From Paenibacillus odorifer (GTDB lineage Bacteria > Bacillota > Bacilli > Paenibacillales > Paenibacillaceae): a DNA stretch of 64,000 nucleotides. The notes under the pieces are model-generated. The model did not search any database and was not told where the DNA came from. It saw only the letters and a program-made list of their open reading frames with translations. Shown one piece after another: positions 36,297-55,361 of this stretch; position 1 is the first letter of the stretch; each line of letters begins with the position of its first letter. The stretch covers positions 806,001 to 870,000 of the forward strand of contig NZ_CP009428.1 of the NCBI RefSeq assembly GCF_000758725.1, given 5' to 3'. The position numbers were made by a program, and so were the translations under genes.

Positions 36297-37409
36297 ATGA
36301 GAAATCACAAACTAACAGAATTAAATGAACAAGCGGTGCAATACATTGCTGTTGGTGCAGCCGTTCTTGGAACAGGCGGGGGCGGTGACCCGCATATTGG
36401 TAAATTGATGGCGATGGAAGCCATTCGCAAATATGGTCCTGTTCGTTTAGTAAGTCCTGAGGATCTGGAGGACGATGCATTGGTTGTTCCTATATCCATG
36501 ATTGGCGCACCTACGGTTATGAATGAGAAGATTCCTTCGATTCAGCAAATGATCAAGCCTTTGGATATGATTGAGAAAGAGCTGGGCCGCAAGGTGAGCG
36601 CCATTATGCCGATTGAGGTCGGTGGCGGTAACTCTCTGGTTCCCGTAATTACGGCTGCGGAACGCAATATTCCTATCGTAGATGCGGATGCCATGGGACG
36701 GGCTTTTCCAGAATCGCAAATGGTGACATTCTACTTGGACGGTATTGACTGCAGTCCGATTACGATGGCAGATGAACGCGGCAATGGTGTGCTTATGCAT
36801 GCGATCGACGGTGTTTGGGAAGAGCGGATGGCGCGTGCGGTTACGATTCAAATGGGCGGATCAGCTTCGATTTGTGATTATCCGGTAACTGGAGCGCAGG
36901 TAAAGCAAAGTGCAATTCCACATACCTTGACGCTTGCGTATGAAATTGGAAAAACATTGTTTGAGTCCAAGGAATTGAAGCAGAATCCAATTGAAATGCT
37001 GCTGAAGCAGCTGAATGGATATGCGTTGTTCCAGGGTAAGGCAGTAGACATTCGCCGTCGTACAGAAGGCGGATTTACACGCGGTGAAGCGATCTTCGAA
37101 GGTACAGATGCTAAAAAGGGACGTACGATGACTTTGTTCTTCCAGAATGAGTTCCTTCTTGCCACAGAAGATGGACATTCAATTGCTATTACTCCTGATC
37201 TGATCTCTGTGCTTGACCAGGATACCGGTATGCCAATCACGACTGAGAATTTGAAATACGGTGCTCGGGTTAGTGTGGTTGGTTTCCCTTGTGATCCGAA
37301 ATGGCGTTCACCAAAGGGCCTCGAGACGGTAGGTCCACAATATTTTGGCTATGACGCACCTTATGTTCCAATTGAACAATTGGCAGCAGAGAAAGGGGGA
37401 GCAGAGTAA
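36297..37409 (+). CDS. DUF917-family protein (hydantoinase-associated)
   Basis: A 370-residue protein with the family's N-terminal VGAAVLGTGGGGDPHIGK, the MPIEVGGGNS loop and DADAMGRAFPE. DUF917 proteins usually travel with hydantoinase/oxoprolinase subunits and NCS1 or NCS2 permeases, as here. The gene starts four bases after the permease stop and overlaps the next gene by one base, so the products are coupled. The reaction is not established. Confidence 0.85.
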   Translation: MRNHKLTELNEQAVQYIAVGAAVLGTGGGGDPHIGKLMAMEAIRKYGPVRLVSPEDLEDDALVVPISMIGAPTVMNEKIPSIQQMIKPLDMIEKELGRKVSAIMPIEVGGGNSLVPVITAAERNIPIVDADAMGRAFPESQMVTFYLDGIDCSPITMADERGNGVLMHAIDGVWEERMARAVTIQMGGSASICDYPVTGAQVKQSAIPHTLTLAYEIGKTLFESKELKQNPIEMLLKQLNGYALFQGKAVDIRRRTEGGFTRGEAIFEGTDAKKGRTMTLFFQNEFLLATEDGHSIAITPDLISVLDQDTGMPITTENLKYGARVSVVGFPCDPKWRSPKGLETVGPQYFGYDAPYVPIEQLAAEKGGAE

Positions 37410-38989
37410 TGTCTCATACGAATGTAGACAACATGGAAGAAATATACCGCATTGGGATTGATGTCGGCGGGACAAATACAGATGCAGCCTTGCTCGACTC
37501 CAAGCTAAACACCATTCATACGATAAAAGTGCATACCACAAGTGATGTGAATGAAGGCATTACTGAATCCATCCGTCGTTTGTTAGCAGAGAGTAGTGTG
37601 AATCCGGCGCAGATTCGTTATGCAATGCTCGGAACTACGCACTGTACGAATGCTATTGTAGAGCGCAAGCACTTGGGGAAAGTCGGCTTGATTCGAATCG
37701 GGGCACCGGCAACAACTGCGGTTCCTCCACTTGCGGATTGGGACGATACACTTAAGGCAACGGTTTGCCCACATGCTTATGTTGTTCATGGTGGATATGA
37801 ATATGATGGCCGCACGATTGTTGAAATGGATGAAGAAGAGATTCTAGACTGCTTTTTGAAAATGAAGGGTGAAGTCGAAGCGGTTGCGATCTGTGGTGTG
37901 TTCTCCCCAGTGAATACCTCGCAGGAGAAACGTGTCGAAGAACTAGCGAAGCAAGTACTTGGCGCAGATATGCCTGTGACGTTGTCTCATGAGATTGGAA
38001 GTATTGGATTGCTCGAGCGTGAGAACGCGTCGTTGCTGAACGGCGCATTACTTAACGTCATTGCTGGAGTCGTAAAGGGCTTCGAAGAGGCGCTTCACAC
38101 TTATGGAATTGACGCGAGCCTATACATCTGTCAGAACGATGGAACACTGATGTACAGTGAATATGCGCTTCGTTACCCGATTCTGACGATTGCTTGCGGT
38201 CCGACGAATTCCATTCGGGGCGCGGCACACTTGTCAGGTCTGAATGATGCACTTGTTGTTGATATCGGTGGCACCACGACAGATATCGGCGTCCTGATGC
38301 AAGGCTTCCCGCGTCAATCCTCCGCTGCGGTTGAGATTGGCGGGATTCGCACGAACTTCCGCATGCCGGATATCTTATCGATCGGGATCGGCGGCGGTAC
38401 AATCGTTCGCTTGGATGAAACGCAGGATCAGGTAACAGTGGGTCCGGATAGCGTGGGGTACGAGCTATTGAAGCGCGGTCTCATCTTTGGTGGTGATACG
38501 CTCACAGCAACCGATGTGGCGGTGAAGCTTAATCGATACGAGTGGAAAGATGCGCAGACTGAGGCACTTGATGAATCGATCTGCAAGAGAGCAGATGAGA
38601 TCATTACGCGGGATATCGAGGAAGCGATTGATCGGATGAAGACAAGCTCAGATCCTGTTGACGTCATTTTGGTCGGTGGCGGAAGTATTCTTGTGGCAGA
38701 CAAGCTTGAAGGTGTATCACGGATTGTAAGACCGGATCACTATGATGCTGCAAATGCGATTGGCGCTGCGTTAGGTGAGGTGAGCGGGGAGACAGAGCGG
38801 ATTTATTCCCTGGACGAAATGTCTTATGATGAAGCTAAGGAAGATGCCCGCAGCCATGCAATAGAGCAAGCTGTTCTAGCCGGTGCAGATCGCGATACCG
38901 TTCAGATCGTATTGTCTGAGGATATTCCGATTGCATACTTGCCGGGTAATGCCTTGCTGGTAAAAGTAAAAGCGGCTGGACGTTTATAA
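37409..38989 (+). CDS. Hydantoinase/oxoprolinase family protein (HyuA-like, short form)
   Basis: A 526-residue protein with an actin-like ATP-binding fold: RIGIDVGGTNTDAALLD (phosphate 1), LVVDIGGTTTDIGVL (phosphate 2) and VDVILVGGGSILV. Such proteins open lactam or hydantoin rings with ATP. It is shorter than stand-alone HyuA (about 690 residues) and matches the short form that pairs with DUF917. It is the last gene of the TetR-controlled unit and is followed by a terminator. Confidence 0.88.
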   Translation: MSHTNVDNMEEIYRIGIDVGGTNTDAALLDSKLNTIHTIKVHTTSDVNEGITESIRRLLAESSVNPAQIRYAMLGTTHCTNAIVERKHLGKVGLIRIGAPATTAVPPLADWDDTLKATVCPHAYVVHGGYEYDGRTIVEMDEEEILDCFLKMKGEVEAVAICGVFSPVNTSQEKRVEELAKQVLGADMPVTLSHEIGSIGLLERENASLLNGALLNVIAGVVKGFEEALHTYGIDASLYICQNDGTLMYSEYALRYPILTIACGPTNSIRGAAHLSGLNDALVVDIGGTTTDIGVLMQGFPRQSSAAVEIGGIRTNFRMPDILSIGIGGGTIVRLDETQDQVTVGPDSVGYELLKRGLIFGGDTLTATDVAVKLNRYEWKDAQTEALDESICKRADEIITRDIEEAIDRMKTSSDPVDVILVGGGSILVADKLEGVSRIVRPDHYDAANAIGAALGEVSGETERIYSLDEMSYDEAKEDARSHAIEQAVLAGADRDTVQIVLSEDIPIAYLPGNALLVKVKAAGRL

Positions 38990-39041: not shown

Positions 39042-39132
39042 TCTTTATAATTGTATTACCAAGAAAGAAAGGGGATTTAGAATAGCTGTCGAAGTGGGTT
39101 ATGTACATATTTTAACGATGGGAGAGAGGACA

Positions 39133-39984
39133 ATGAAAGTGATTAGCACATTAGAAATCGTAGATGTACAGACTAGGGAGCGTACTGCCCTCCGCTCATT
39201 TGATTATTTAATCGAGGCACCCAATTGGACTAGCGATGGTAAGCGTCTTATTTATAATAGTCGAGGTTGTCTCTATTCGTTCGACATCGCAACCTGTGAG
39301 CTTGTTCAAATTGACTCGGGGTTTGCTGCGGAATGTAATAACGATCATGTTCTGTCTTTTGACAACACTAAGATCGCAATTAGTCACCATACGAAAGAAG
39401 ATGGTAAATCTCGTATATATATTCTTCCCATGGAGGGTGGCGAACCGGTTCTAGTTACACCGAATGCTCCAAGTTATTTACATGGTTGGTCTCCAAACGG
39501 TGCTGAGTTAGCTTACTGTGCAGAGCGCAATGGTCAATATGATATTTATACCATTCCAGTAGACGGGGGAGTAGAGGTACAACTGACGGATTCGCCTGGG
39601 CTGGATGATGGGCCTGAATATTCACCAGATGGGGGAAATATATGGTTCAACTCGGTGCGTACAGGGCTGATGCAGATATGGCGAATGAATGCCGATGGCA
39701 CTGAGCAAACACAGATGACTTTTGATGAGAGTAATAACTGGTTCCCGCATGTATCGCCAGATGGGCAGACGATTGCTTACTTGAGTTACCGCAAAGGAGA
39801 TGTAGATCCTGGCGATCACCCTGCGAATAAGGATGTTGAGATTCGATTGATGGCAAGCACGGGAGGAGATTATCGCACACTAGTACAATTGATTGGAGGA
39901 CAAGGTACGATTAACGTGAATTCGTGGTCTCCGGATAGTAAGCGCTTGGCGTTTGTAAGTTATGTGGTGGAGGAATACGAATAA
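39133..39984 (+). CDS. TolB-like six-bladed propeller protein (cytosolic)
   Basis: A 283-residue protein starting at ATG 39133, behind GGGAGAGAGG; the upstream ATG at 39094 lacks a site. It has WD40-like/PD40 repeats: APNWTSDGKRLIYNS, LHGWSPNGAELAYCAE, DDGPEYSPDGGNIWFNS, WFPHVSPDGQTIAYLS and VNSWSPDSKRLAFVS. There is no signal peptide. Members of this group are often annotated as TolB-like or biopolymer-transporter-like. Its role here is unknown. Confidence 0.8.
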   Translation: MKVISTLEIVDVQTRERTALRSFDYLIEAPNWTSDGKRLIYNSRGCLYSFDIATCELVQIDSGFAAECNNDHVLSFDNTKIAISHHTKEDGKSRIYILPMEGGEPVLVTPNAPSYLHGWSPNGAELAYCAERNGQYDIYTIPVDGGVEVQLTDSPGLDDGPEYSPDGGNIWFNSVRTGLMQIWRMNADGTEQTQMTFDESNNWFPHVSPDGQTIAYLSYRKGDVDPGDHPANKDVEIRLMASTGGDYRTLVQLIGGQGTINVNSWSPDSKRLAFVSYVVEEYE

Positions 39985-45130: not shown

Positions 45131-45158
45131 TAAAAAATTACTAAGGACTATCCGATAT
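45131..45158 (+). promoter_or_regulatory. Sigma-D (flagellar) promoter
   Basis: TAAA (45131-45134), 16 bases, TCCGATAT (45151-45158) match the sigma-D consensus TAAA-N15-GCCGATAA closely, about 30 bases before the flagellin start. Confidence 0.7.
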
Positions 45159-45188
45159 AGAAGATACTAACAATTGAAAGGTGATTAA

Positions 45189-47096
45189 ATGCGAATCGGT
45201 CACAACATCACGTCTTTAAATAGTTTGAACAGATTAAATAAAAATAATAAATCTATTACAAGTTCACAAGAGAGGTTATCTTCTGGACTTCGGATAAATA
45301 TAGCGGCAGATGATGCTGCAGGATTAGCAATTTCTGAGAAAATGAGAGCACAGATTCGTGGATTATCTCAGGCAGCAAGGAATACACAGGATGGTATTTC
45401 ACTAATTCAGACTGCTGAGGGTGGACTTGGAACTATACAAGATCCTAATCTGCTAAGACTTCGGGAGCTTGCAATACAGGCTTCAAATGATACCTTAACA
45501 AATTTTGATCGAACATTGATTCAAAAAGAAGTTGAGCAGATAAAGCTTGGGATAAATGATATTGCTAATAACACTCAATTTAATGGAATTCATTTATTGA
45601 ATAATGACCTCGAAGTAAACACGAATATTACCCCAGTACAGGGCAATATAAGTACGAACTGGACAGCTAACATACCTGCCAGAGATTTATCTAAGACTTC
45701 AGATGGAGGTTACGTCGGAATAAGAATTCCCGGTAATAATCCCTTCAAATTAGATAGTATGGGTAATCTGGTTTGGTCACAAGCAATTCCTAATATGGAT
45801 GTGTATAGTATTAAGGAATCTAGTGATGGTGGTTATATTTTATTAGGAAATGATTTCTCAGCAGGGGCAATTTCCGATCAAAGGATAAATATAATTAAAT
45901 GGGATGGGAATTTGAATGAGCAGTGGAGTACAGGGGTATCTGGCGTCTACTCCATTATGGGGAATGAAGTAATTGAGACTAGTGACGGTTCCTTTATTGT
46001 GGCAGGGACGGGTTCCGGTATTCAAAATTGGGATGGCCTTATGGCTAAATTTAATAGTAGTGGTGTGCAACAATCCACCTCGATAGTGGGTTCTTCACAA
46101 TCCAATCCTGTTGGCTATGGAAGCGAAGAATTTAATTCTATTATTGAAACTGCTGACGGCGGTTATTTGGCTATTGGTTCATCAAGTCTCAAACTAAACA
46201 GTTCTTATACCGATAAGTCAAGCTGGGTTGTGAAATATGATAGTAACTTAAATCCGTTATGGGACACACGAGTCGGTGCTGCTGGGGATGATGAAGGTTA
46301 CCGCGCCATCGCAACCAGTGATGGAGGGGCCATAATTGTTGGTTCTTATAACGACTCTACTAAAACTAGTGGATTAATCTATAAACTAGACAGTAGTGGA
46401 AACGTATTGTGGGAGAAGAATATCTCAAATGAAACTTCCAACTCCAGTCAACTTACTAGCATTACAGAAATGAAAGATGGGAATTACATCGTTGGAGGAA
46501 TAGTAGATAATAATTATCGTCTTTCCATTTTTGATCCACAGGGAAATGAATTGGCTAATGTTAATCTAAATGGTGGGGGCTCTACGGATAGATTAAATAA
46601 CATTATTAGTAATGATGACGGAAGTTACACTTTTTCAACTACAACTGGGATAACCAATTTCAATGTATCTTACGGATCAAACCCTGGTACCACATATGAT
46701 TACAAAACAGTAAATCTTCAGGTGGGAGCAAACTCTGGGAATAACTTCGCTGTTAAATTAACAGATGCTAGAACTACTGCTCTGGGAATTGCGGATATAG
46801 ATCTTTCAACTAGACAAGGTGCCGAATTAGCGATTTCAAAAATAGACAAAGCTATAAATACCGTTTCATCCAAGCGTTCAATGTACGGCGCGTATCAAAA
46901 TGCATTAGAACATATCCATAATAACCTAACCAATTACGAAGTGAACTTAACAGCAGCTGAATCACGAATAAGAGATGTGGATATGGCAAAGGAAATGATG
47001 AAGCTTACCAAATACAATGTCTTATCTCAAGCATCACAAGCGATGTTGGCTCAAGCTAATCAACAGCCTCAAGGCGTGTTAGAGTTGTTAAAATAG
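45189..47096 (+). CDS. Flagellin with a propeller-like insert in place of D2/D3
   Basis: Residues 1-145 are flagellin D0/D1 (MRIGHNITSLNSLNRL, SSGLRINIAADDAAGLAISE, QDGISLIQTAEGGL) and residues about 503-635 are the C-terminal D1/D0 (ESRIRDVDMAKEMM, then LSQASQAMLAQANQQPQGVL). Between them, about 345 residues carry seven repeats of the type DGGY..xG...K.D..GN..W, for example near 171, 215, 265, 315, 375, 435 and 480. That number suggests a seven-bladed beta-propeller. The length is 635 against about 270-300 for ordinary Bacillus flagellin. It lies alone, far from any flagellar genes seen here, with its own sigma-D promoter and terminator. It is probably a minor filament subunit displaying a binding domain. 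Confidence 0.85.
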   Translation: MRIGHNITSLNSLNRLNKNNKSITSSQERLSSGLRINIAADDAAGLAISEKMRAQIRGLSQAARNTQDGISLIQTAEGGLGTIQDPNLLRLRELAIQASNDTLTNFDRTLIQKEVEQIKLGINDIANNTQFNGIHLLNNDLEVNTNITPVQGNISTNWTANIPARDLSKTSDGGYVGIRIPGNNPFKLDSMGNLVWSQAIPNMDVYSIKESSDGGYILLGNDFSAGAISDQRINIIKWDGNLNEQWSTGVSGVYSIMGNEVIETSDGSFIVAGTGSGIQNWDGLMAKFNSSGVQQSTSIVGSSQSNPVGYGSEEFNSIIETADGGYLAIGSSSLKLNSSYTDKSSWVVKYDSNLNPLWDTRVGAAGDDEGYRAIATSDGGAIIVGSYNDSTKTSGLIYKLDSSGNVLWEKNISNETSNSSQLTSITEMKDGNYIVGGIVDNNYRLSIFDPQGNELANVNLNGGGSTDRLNNIISNDDGSYTFSTTTGITNFNVSYGSNPGTTYDYKTVNLQVGANSGNNFAVKLTDARTTALGIADIDLSTRQGAELAISKIDKAINTVSSKRSMYGAYQNALEHIHNNLTNYEVNLTAAESRIRDVDMAKEMMKLTKYNVLSQASQAMLAQANQQPQGVLELLK

Positions 47097-47109
47097 TGCT
47101 ATACATACA

Positions 47110-47141
47110 GTCTATGCATTTTCAGTGCATAGGCTTTTTTT
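47110..47141 (+). terminator. Terminator of the flagellin gene
   Basis: GTCTATGCA (47110-47118) pairs with TGCATAGGC (47126-47134), then T7. Confidence 0.85.
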
Positions 47142-47262
47142 AGAATCTATGATGATCTAAGAAATGATTTACAAAAAAATTTCCAGAGACTATTATATTT
47201 CTATGCGTAATATTTTCCTTTTTTAACTAGATTATTGTAAGAATTTATCTCTGGAGGTTCAA

Positions 47263-51670: not shown

Positions 51671-52381
51671 TTGATTACAGAGGTTAGTAGTTTTTCGGTT
51701 CTTGGACTGGTTGTGGGAGAAGAAGTTTTTGCGGAGAATGATCAATTATATATTGGCACTAAGCTTTCAATATCGATCAAGGAACTGACAGTTTGGCAGA
51801 GCTCTCTATCTATTTTTCCAAAAGAAGTAAAGACGCTAAGAGATAATTTGGCTGTGGCAAAAGCTTATATCAATAGCTATGGAAAACCAGGCGGTATGAA
51901 GCAGTTTGCGGGTTCTAGCTGCTTTGAGAGAGAAACGATGCGGCTGCTGGAAGAGCGATCTTCAGGTCTTCTGAATGCCTTGGCGAATGACAGCATGGAA
52001 GATGCTGCTCATTATGCAATTCGACTAATGGGATTAGGCCCAGGTCTGACTCCGTCGGGAGATGATTTTTTAGTTGGGTTGTTTGCTGTGATCCATCTGC
52101 CTCAGAGTCCTATTAATAAATATCAGCCGTGGTGCAGGAAAGTCGTGAACGAAGCAGCTGAATTAACGAATGAAATAAGCTATATGGCTCTGAAAAAAGC
52201 GGCTTGGGGTCAGGTGAGAGAGTCAATGGGTCAGATGCTGCATTCGCTCATGTATGAGAGTAAGGAAAATATGCTTCTTGGCTTATCGGCAGTGCTGGAT
52301 ATAGGTTCTTCTTCCGGAACAGATATTGCCTTGGGGATCATTAGCGGTTTGGATCTTAATCTAGAACAACGTTGGAGGTAA
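51671..52381 (+). CDS. DUF2877 protein, AllH-like (oxamate carbamoyltransferase subunit); start unresolved
   Basis: From TTG 51671 the product is 236 residues, with the DUF2877 motif GLGPGLTPSGDDFLVG (about 117-132) and the C-terminal GSSSGTDIALGIISG. It corresponds to E. coli YlbF/AllH, one of the three proteins forming oxamate carbamoyltransferase. The family's N-terminal part is encoded upstream in the same frame (NIHSIFERTINV near 51599, then DELYTIASSRVDNAPNT). That frame is open back to 51431 but has no ATG, GTG or TTG before 51671. The true start is therefore a rare codon, or a mutation or frameshift has hit the gene. It is first in the operon, four bases before fdrA. Confidence 0.75.
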   Translation: MITEVSSFSVLGLVVGEEVFAENDQLYIGTKLSISIKELTVWQSSLSIFPKEVKTLRDNLAVAKAYINSYGKPGGMKQFAGSSCFERETMRLLEERSSGLLNALANDSMEDAAHYAIRLMGLGPGLTPSGDDFLVGLFAVIHLPQSPINKYQPWCRKVVNEAAELTNEISYMALKKAAWGQVRESMGQMLHSLMYESKENMLLGLSAVLDIGSSSGTDIALGIISGLDLNLEQRWR

Positions 52382-52384
52382 GAT

Positions 52385-53929
52385 ATGTCGACTAAAATAG
52401 TAATTAAAAGAAACACATACTTTGATTCCGTCTCGCTCATGTCGTTGTCGACCAAAGCGAATCAAATAGAGGGTGTCGAACAAGCTTTTATCGCAATGGC
52501 TACTCAAATGAATAAAGAGGTATTAGCGAATGTAGGGCTGATAACCCCTGAGCTAGAGGAAGCTAAGAATAGTGACCTGATGATCGTAATCAAAGCAGCA
52601 TCCCCTGAGCTGGCTGAAGTTGCCTTGGAAGCAATCGAAGAGCTGTTTATTAAAAAAGATAGTGCAGTTGGCGGTACAGAGCTTAAATATCCAACAATTG
52701 AGTCGGCAGTGAAGAATATGACAGCAGCTAATCTTGCAGTGATTTCAGTCAACGGATCGTTTGCAGCCAGAGAAGCAAGAAAAGCGCTGGAGAATAATCT
52801 CCATGTCATGATGTTCAGTGACAACGTAAGCGTAGAAGACGAAATTGAATTAAAAAAAATAGCACATGAGCGTGGATTACTGATGATGGGGCCGGATTGC
52901 GGAACCGCGATCATTGGAAATATGGCCTTATGTTTTGCCAATAAAGTTCGTAAAGGCAATATCGGCATCGTGGGTGCATCTGGCACAGGAAGTCAGGAAA
53001 TCAGCGTGCGGATTCACGATTTTGGCGGAGGCATCTCACAGTTGATTGGCACAGGCGGCAGAGACCTAAGTGAACGTGTCGGCGGAGTAATGATGCTTGA
53101 TGTGATGAAAGCGCTTAACGAAGACGAAGCCACAAAGGTCATTGTGTTGATTTCCAAACCACCAGCCAAAAGTGTGGAACAAAAAGTGCTGAATGAAATC
53201 AAAAATATGCATAAGCCTGTCGTGGTCTGCTTTATCGGAGGAACGGAGGAAGCTGTTCTGGAGGCAGGTGGACATTTTGCCAAAACAACCAAAGAGGCCG
53301 CGCTGAAGGCGGTAATTCTATCCGGCATCGATGAGAGTCAAATTGACAAGCATTCGCTAAACCTTCCGCTGATTGAGGAGATTAAGGTCAAGCTGAAGCC
53401 AGAACAGAAGTATATTCGTGGGTTATTCTGCGGCGGTACTTTATGTGATGAAGCAATGTATCTAGCGATGGAGAAATACGACGATGTCTATAGCAACATT
53501 CCAAAAGATCCGGAATATCAGCTGGGTGATATCCATATCAGCCAAGCACATACGTTTATTGACTTTGGGGATGATGGGTTCACTAACGGCAAACCACATC
53601 CGATGATTGATCCTTCTTCACGGATTGCCAGATTCAAGCAGGAAGCGAAGGACCCGGCGGTGGGCGTGATCATTATGGATTTTGTATTAGGCTATGGATC
53701 ACATGAGGATCCAGTAGGTGTTATGGTGCCTGCAATTATTGAGGCTAAGCAAGCAGCGGAACAAGAAGGCAGACATTTGGAGATTGTCGGCTATGTACTT
53801 GGAACCGATCTGGATACACCTTCCGTCCAAGAACAGCTTGATAAGCTGGTATCCGCGGGCGTTACCTATGCAAGCAGTAATACGAATGCAGGACTTCTTG
53901 CCAGAGGTTTTGTAGAGAAGGGAGTATAA
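52385..53929 (+). CDS. fdrA: FdrA/AllF-like acyl-CoA synthetase-fold subunit
   Basis: A 514-residue protein with the succinyl-CoA-ligase-like FdrA fold: N-terminal MSTKIVIKRNTYFDSVSLM, CoA-binding-type domain (about 110-210: LAVISVNGSFAAREA, GPDCGTAI, GIVGASGTGSQE) and C-terminal ligase-like part (GLFCGGTLCDEAM, FVLGYGSHEDPVG). FdrA (AllF) is part of E. coli oxamate carbamoyltransferase, which converts oxamate-type carbamoyl compounds and phosphate to carbamoyl phosphate. Its neighbours AllH- and AllG-like and carbamate kinase match that pathway. Confidence 0.88.
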   Translation: MSTKIVIKRNTYFDSVSLMSLSTKANQIEGVEQAFIAMATQMNKEVLANVGLITPELEEAKNSDLMIVIKAASPELAEVALEAIEELFIKKDSAVGGTELKYPTIESAVKNMTAANLAVISVNGSFAAREARKALENNLHVMMFSDNVSVEDEIELKKIAHERGLLMMGPDCGTAIIGNMALCFANKVRKGNIGIVGASGTGSQEISVRIHDFGGGISQLIGTGGRDLSERVGGVMMLDVMKALNEDEATKVIVLISKPPAKSVEQKVLNEIKNMHKPVVVCFIGGTEEAVLEAGGHFAKTTKEAALKAVILSGIDESQIDKHSLNLPLIEEIKVKLKPEQKYIRGLFCGGTLCDEAMYLAMEKYDDVYSNIPKDPEYQLGDIHISQAHTFIDFGDDGFTNGKPHPMIDPSSRIARFKQEAKDPAVGVIIMDFVLGYGSHEDPVGVMVPAIIEAKQAAEQEGRHLEIVGYVLGTDLDTPSVQEQLDKLVSAGVTYASSNTNAGLLARGFVEKGV

Positions 53930-53930
53930 C

Positions 53931-55361
53931 ATGAGCAGAATCAATGAGTTATTTAAGAGTGAACTTCACGTTATCAATGTCGGCCTAGAAATGTTCAAGG
54001 ATGATATCCTGAAGCAAAAAGGCAACGTAACCCATCTGGAATGGAAGCCACCTGGTGGAGGTAAGCCCGAATTAATTGCCGCACTGGATGCGTTAGAGCA
54101 AGAGGAAATTGCTGCAAAGATTGAGGCTGCCAACAAGCTGGCTGTAGAGCGAATCGTGAATTCACAACCGGTATTGGTTGGTTTTGACCAAGCGATCAAC
54201 GTCGTACCAGGGATGACTAAGACTACGATATTACATGCAGGACCTCCGATTACTTGGGATAAGATGAGTGGTCCCATGAAAGGTGCAGTTACCGGCGCTT
54301 TGGTCTTTGAGGGCTTGGCGAAGGATCTCGATGAAGCTGCCGAACTAGCGGCATCAGGTGAGATTACGTTCTCCCCTTGTCACGAGCATAATTGTGTGGG
54401 TTCCATGGCAGGAGTAACCTCAGCCTCTATGTTTATGCACATTGTAGAGAATAAAACGTATGGCAACATCGCTTATACGAACCTTAGTGAGCAACTGTCG
54501 AAAATCTTGCGGATGGGTGCAAACGATGAAACGGTCGTTGCCCGTTTGATCTGGATGAGAGATGTGCTTGGACCGATGCTGCGTGAGGCGATGAAGTTCT
54601 CTGAGAACGGCATTGATCTGCGGCTCATGTTATCACAGGCGCTTCATATGGGAGATGAATGCCATAACCGCAACAACGCTGGAACGACTCTTTTGATTCA
54701 GGCATTAACGCCGCTTATCCTGAGAACGGATTATACCAATGAGCAGAAAATCGAAGTGTTCGATTTTGTGGCAATGAGTGATTATTTCTCCGGACCAACC
54801 TGGATGGCTCTTTGTAAATGTGCACTTGATGCTGCCCATGGCATCGAGCATAGCACCATCGTAACAACGATGGCCCGCAATGGCGTGGAATTTGGTATTC
54901 GTGTCAGTGGAATGCCAGGCAATACCTGGTTTATCGGTCCTGCGCAAAAGGTTGTCGGACCGATGTTTGCAGGGTATAAGCCGGAAGACTCGGGACTCGA
55001 TATCGGAGACAGTGCGATTACCGAAACGTATGGTATAGGTGGCTTCGCCATGGCAACCGCGCCGGCGATTGTAGCATTAGTTGGGGGAACCGTAGATGAT
55101 GCCATGAACTATTCTGTGAAAATGAAGGAAATCACTACGACGGAGAATCCAAATGTGACGATTCCTTTGTTGAACTTCCGCGGAATTCCTACTGGAATCG
55201 ATATTCGTAAAGTGGGTCAAACCAGCATTATGCCAGTGATCAACACGGCTATTGCCCATAAGGATCCAGGCATCGGAATGATTGGAGCCGGAATCACTCA
55301 TCCTCCAATCGAGTGTTTCGAGCAAGCCATTCTCGCTTTTAGCCAGAGCATGCATTCATAG
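53931..55361 (+). CDS. DUF1116 protein, AllG-like
   Basis: A 476-residue protein of the DUF1116 family, matching E. coli YlbE/AllG. Landmarks are VNSQPVLVGFDQAINVVPGM near 135-155, GEITFSPCHEHNCVGSMAGVTS and HMGDECHNRNNAGTTL. It starts one base after the fdrA stop. With FdrA and the DUF2877 protein it should form the carbamoyltransferase that yields carbamoyl phosphate for the carbamate kinase at the end of the operon. The exact substrate (oxamate, or another ureido acid) cannot be read here. Confidence 0.87.
   Translation: MSRINELFKSELHVINVGLEMFKDDILKQKGNVTHLEWKPPGGGKPELIAALDALEQEEIAAKIEAANKLAVERIVNSQPVLVGFDQAINVVPGMTKTTILHAGPPITWDKMSGPMKGAVTGALVFEGLAKDLDEAAELAASGEITFSPCHEHNCVGSMAGVTSASMFMHIVENKTYGNIAYTNLSEQLSKILRMGANDETVVARLIWMRDVLGPMLREAMKFSENGIDLRLMLSQALHMGDECHNRNNAGTTLLIQALTPLILRTDYTNEQKIEVFDFVAMSDYFSGPTWMALCKCALDAAHGIEHSTIVTTMARNGVEFGIRVSGMPGNTWFIGPAQKVVGPMFAGYKPEDSGLDIGDSAITETYGIGGFAMATAPAIVALVGGTVDDAMNYSVKMKEITTTENPNVTIPLLNFRGIPTGIDIRKVGQTSIMPVINTAIAHKDPGIGMIGAGITHPPIECFEQAILAFSQSMHS

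Follow-up and report, generated by a model that had tools for sequence, protein, structure and literature searches.

A 64,000-nucleotide stretch of Paenibacillus odorifer DNA (hereafter the window) codes for a flagellin whose variable outer part is replaced by a series of repeats. It raises the questions of what this part is and whether a flagellar filament would carry it. The gene (45189-47096, + strand) encodes 635 amino acids plus stop, without cysteine, and is preceded by the ribosome-binding site AAAGGTGAT (45177-45185, +), which also precedes the start codon in the relatives G056 and G020 (P. faecalis). The D0/D1 ends are intact, as an earlier note on this DNA had stated. Pfam recognises Flagellin_N in the amino terminus half (residues 1-140; 45189-45608, +), over residues 3-139 with E 6e-40, and Flagellin_C in the carboxyl terminus half (residues 506-635; 46704-47093, +), over residues 549-634 with E 6e-26; both are far over the cut-off. 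The nearest solved structures for these core parts are flagellins (best E 4.5e-65). It is likely that the protein is an accessory flagellin, whose core would be expressed, exported and polymerised while a propeller of CylK/SBBP type, taking the place of D2/D3, would be shown on the filament surface.

The gene is found at 0.85 Mb of the genome, away from flagellar genes as previously noted: the main flagellin gene and a FlgL-like gene are localized at 6.34 Mb, and a sigma factor of FliA type is encoded at 4.12 Mb. A sigma-D-like motif, TAAA-N16-TCCGATAT (45131-45158, +), matches the consensus 58 nt before the ATG and aligns with the relatives. Such a pattern is expected by chance 0.78 times per window, and the motif by itself is weak evidence. 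The box is credible as a promoter because of its distance to the ATG and because TAAA-N16-NYCGATAW boxes precede the G056 gene, the P. faecalis gene and the main flagellin gene of the same genome. The sigma-D promoter attributed to the gene in the earlier note therefore stands as a box with counterparts in relatives, qualified by how common the pattern is by chance. An intrinsic terminator composed of a hairpin (47109-47135) and a T run follows the coding sequence (47109-47145, +). Elsewhere the window encodes another propeller-type protein (39094-39984, +) with PD40 repeats (Pfam), a different repeat family. It also carries a S-Me-THD/hydantoinase pair (36297-38989) and genes with AllH, CoA-ligase and AllG domains, of the oxamate carbamoyltransferase type (51671-55361, +).

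The insert occupies residues ~146-505 (~346-360 amino acids) and features seven DGG(Y)...K.D..GN..W repeats, in agreement with the seven repeats over about 345 residues described before. The repeat cores are at residues 172, 213, 266, 323, 378, 430 and 477, spaced by 41-57 amino acids, and a blade HMM has exactly seven matches in the protein. With an HMM built from blades 4 and 5 alone the other blades score 27.1 bits, versus 7.2 bits for the best of 1000 shuffled inserts. Repeat cores, HMM matches and predicted strands delimit, all on the + strand, blade 1 (45675-45797), blade 2 (45798-45953), blade 3 (45954-46124), blade 4 (46125-46286), blade 5 (46287-46442), blade 6 (46443-46586) and strands a-c of blade 7 (46587-46688). 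Blade 5 is the most conserved, with 86% identity to P. faecalis, and blade 6 the least, with 38%. Sequence alone leans toward a propeller of CylK/SBBP type: the NCBIfam LipL53 model (SBBP propeller) gives a weak match (E 6e-6; 25 bits vs a curated cut-off of 400), and the similarity to CylK found by phmmer is also weak (E 0.007).

Structure prediction favours the propeller envisaged earlier. AlphaFold2 modelled the insert alone (four-row alignment) with a mean pLDDT of 73 and a pTM of 0.76, its strands forming seven blades of four. The full-length model (two-row alignment) has a poor core, pLDDT of 66-83 over much of the repeat region and low confidence outside the propeller. When the insert model was compared to solved structures, the CylK propeller ranked first in Foldseek (E 5.8e-13) as well as in VIA-align (334 residues at 3.5 Å, with Z 32.8). 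It was again first for the full-length model (Foldseek E 1.7e-11, VIA-align Z 30.2). The part of CylK matched is only ~250-662, its seven-bladed propeller. The insert is predicted to be a seven-bladed beta-propeller, CylK/SBBP-like, a fold that according to VIA-align is common to hundreds of chains, many of them non-enzymes. The CylK alignments start at model residue 14-17, which corresponds to protein residue 153-156. This is within the segment GNISTNWTA (residues 152-160; 45642-45668, +) that is similar to the GN..W strand in the repeats and is modelled with low pLDDT. GNISTNW fits as the last strand of blade 7, a candidate for the Velcro closure of the ring; model confidence is low for the closing strand, and a carboxyl terminus strand (model residues 367-373) is an alternative closer. 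Conservation is highest in the motif turns (77-83%) and lowest in the top-face b-c and d-a loops (55-58%), so that no conserved ligand site stands out. With neither a ligand site nor a catalytic motif found in the insert, the lectin- or enzyme-like character proposed for it gained no support.

Other flagellins with the same insert, for which the earlier note had proposed a search, do exist. Within Bacillota, insert profiles were run on samples of the family, the order, the class and the phylum, with a maximum of 400 genomes per sample, a limited sampling in which weak independent propeller-flagellin fusions may escape detection. At family level 49 of 394 genomes had matches. Among the family loci read, only those of three Paenibacillus species carry the insert inside a flagellin. 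The remaining ones code no flagellin core and their amino termini are mostly secreted-looking by eye, and the reading of all genus and family matches as propeller flagellins was accordingly rejected. One further propeller flagellin, a giant protein of genome G836, was present among the loci read from the order, class and phylum samples. The full-length relative in G056 shares 96% identity and the upstream neighbours of the window gene, while the one of P. faecalis (G020/L039) has 68% identity and different neighbours. A donor within the same genome was not found at the threshold used, the sole match being the window gene. Back-translated patterns retrieved no viral relatives, phage and plasmid matches were weak (<34% identity) and none of them is named flagellin, and a PHROGs search gave no convincing match.

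The dN/dS ratio relative to G056 is 0.13 for the insert and 0.12 and 0.15 for the two core halves; compared to P. faecalis the insert also gives 0.13, with dS near saturation. By these ratios the insert is under purifying selection like the core, and the propeller domain is therefore maintained. The dS to G056 is 0.29 in the amino terminus core versus 0.10 in the insert, which makes the gene look mosaic and suggests recombination within 45189-47093; in blades 5-6 it falls to 0.03. In 32 compared flagellins, nearly all from the genus, the outer regions span 5 to 369 amino acids, many of them without detectable similarity. The nearest core relative, an orphan flagellin of G021 (L036:8998-10920, -), belongs to the same core clade and has a different insert of ~367 amino acids, pointing to outer-domain exchange among orphan flagellins. 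It was discarded as a propeller flagellin, its insert having none of the DGGY repeats. ORFs near two orphan flagellins (L036:8146-8940, -, and L038:6198-6974, +) have amino termini alike by eye (MWSEV.../MWADL...) and match no Pfam family over cut-off.

G836, presumed to be Acetohalobium arabaticum, a distant bacterium of salt-loving habit, codes for a flagellin of 1,486 amino acids (L113:7904-12364, +; TTG start) that has Flagellin_N and Flagellin_C and, like the window flagellin, lacks cysteine. The gene fliS is ~3 kb away, and another flagellin of this genome has 505 amino acids. A blade HMM refined on the giant protein and the window protein counts 21 blades, 3x7, with an additional half match ahead of these, as expected if an amino terminus strand closes the ring. 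With its length the G836 protein is within the size range of giant flagellins (>1000 amino acids), unlike the window protein. The propeller label needs two changes in the flagellin core tree, where the starred branches force two; the Paenibacillus and G836 cases therefore look like separate recruitments, losses being a less likely explanation. The description of A. arabaticum has it swim with one or two flagella, which were not seen in the genome paper. On the upstream side of fliS and of the giant flagellin gene lie genes (L113:255-4349, +) whose products have glycosyltransferase/methyltransferase and sulfotransferase domains and perhaps modify the filament. A tentative generalization is that propeller flagellins might be a recurrent class, at least two lineages having separately put DGGY propellers (7 or 3x7 blades) on flagellin to give a filament that is a dense array of binding domains.

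In the accessory flagellin reading, the helical D0/D1 core of the window protein would be exported unfolded via the flagellar type III apparatus and then polymerise into the filament. This filament would probably be mixed with the main flagellin of the genome, which has merely 7 amino acids between its core halves and no outer domain, making mixed filaments plausible. Since the two ends of a propeller are adjacent, a loop of D1 can accommodate it while the core stays undisturbed. These ends would leave D1 side by side, placing one propeller per subunit on the filament surface. Flagellar filaments rise ~4.7 Å per subunit and a propeller disc is ~45 Å wide. A shell at ~85 Å radius offers ~2500 Å2 per subunit versus ~1500 Å2 for the propeller disc, and there would thus be room even in a filament made purely of propeller flagellin. 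As donors of the domain we infer the secreted DGGY-propeller proteins of Paenibacillaceae, from which it was most likely taken. The likeliest use of the propeller would be a binding surface repeated along the filament, a role as interaction surface that we hold to be possible rather than probable.

The domain might also bind nothing in particular. There is a real chance, if a less than even one, that it is a passive outer domain that thickens, stiffens or masks the filament, outer domains being simply swapped among flagellins. The spread in size and the dissimilarity of the outer regions in the 32 flagellins are in line with this, as are the different insert of the nearest core relative and the propeller loops, which are not especially conserved. 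Thick filaments are possible with giant flagellins (PMC6248924). Against a merely passive domain count the apparent recruitment of the same propeller family by two lineages and the unequal conservation of blades 5 and 6 relative to P. faecalis, a hint of a constrained patch. Outer domains could otherwise be exchanged to evade flagellum-binding phages or other recognition, the propeller being one mask of many. Such surface variation would account for the domain replacement inside one orphan clade and for the uneven dS along the gene, but selection on the insert within the propeller group is purifying and not diversifying, and we consider it unlikely.

An enzymatic filament, as in flagellinolysin, is brought to mind by CylK, the top structural match, which is an enzyme, and by the existence of enzymatic flagellins (PMC5595980). 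CylK catalysis, however, needs Arg105 of its amino terminus domain and Tyr473 (PMC8916777), and that domain is absent here. The HExxH motif is also missing, the whole window protein has only four His, and the fold is shared by many non-enzymes, which renders catalysis very improbable. That the protein is not in filaments at all, being released or unexpressed, would agree with a gene that stands alone in the genome. This seems rather unlikely for a gene that has its own promoter-like box and terminator and codes an intact core under purifying selection.

Flagellin outer domains are poorly understood surface structures. The finding of the propeller twice, in multiples of seven blades, suggests that it is a natural display scaffold, and some bacteria may display propellers by the thousand on their flagella. 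It also poses the folding question of how one propeller with its ~350 residues, or a series of three, would pass the channel unfolded and fold at the filament tip.

Several known systems resemble parts of this arrangement. Sialidases are a propeller-fold family with six blades. A 2017 survey lists 'Sialidase' in the variable regions of 10 flagellins (PMC5595980, Table 1). By this listing they have a propeller-type domain in the same place, but sialidase propellers differ from the window insert in blade number and sequence family. The view that no propeller flagellin had been described consequently applies to the DGGY/SBBP kind, neither a seven-bladed nor a three-propeller flagellin of which was found in the mainly open-access literature, and not to propellers at large. 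Oceanospirillales giant flagellins also have an enlarged outer region, in some cases with repeated domains; their DE repeats are reported without similarity to enzyme domains, and the available part of the report does not mention a propeller fold (PMC6248924). The carboxyl terminus propeller of CylK (7RON, 7FH6) has seven blades and is the best fold match with weak sequence similarity, but CylK itself is enzymatic, carries an extra Ca-binding domain at its amino terminus, and has blade-bridging Ca2+ sites (PMC8916777). The window protein was rejected as a CylK-type alkylating enzyme, since this domain with Arg105 is missing and the insert is flanked by the flagellin core. SBBP/LipL53 propeller lipoproteins and the secreted DGGY proteins of Paenibacillaceae have similar repeats but no flagellin core, and amino termini that are mostly signal-peptide-like by eye. 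Flagellinolysins are metallopeptidase flagellins (PMC5595980) that likewise keep the core and carry a foreign domain in the variable region, while the window insert is a predicted propeller; assignment to this group was dismissed for lack of HExxH and a score of 78.9 bits with NCBIfam flagella_HExxH versus a cut-off of 205. Replacement of the flagellin outer domain was thus already known, and propeller inserts in flagellin are not wholly unprecedented.
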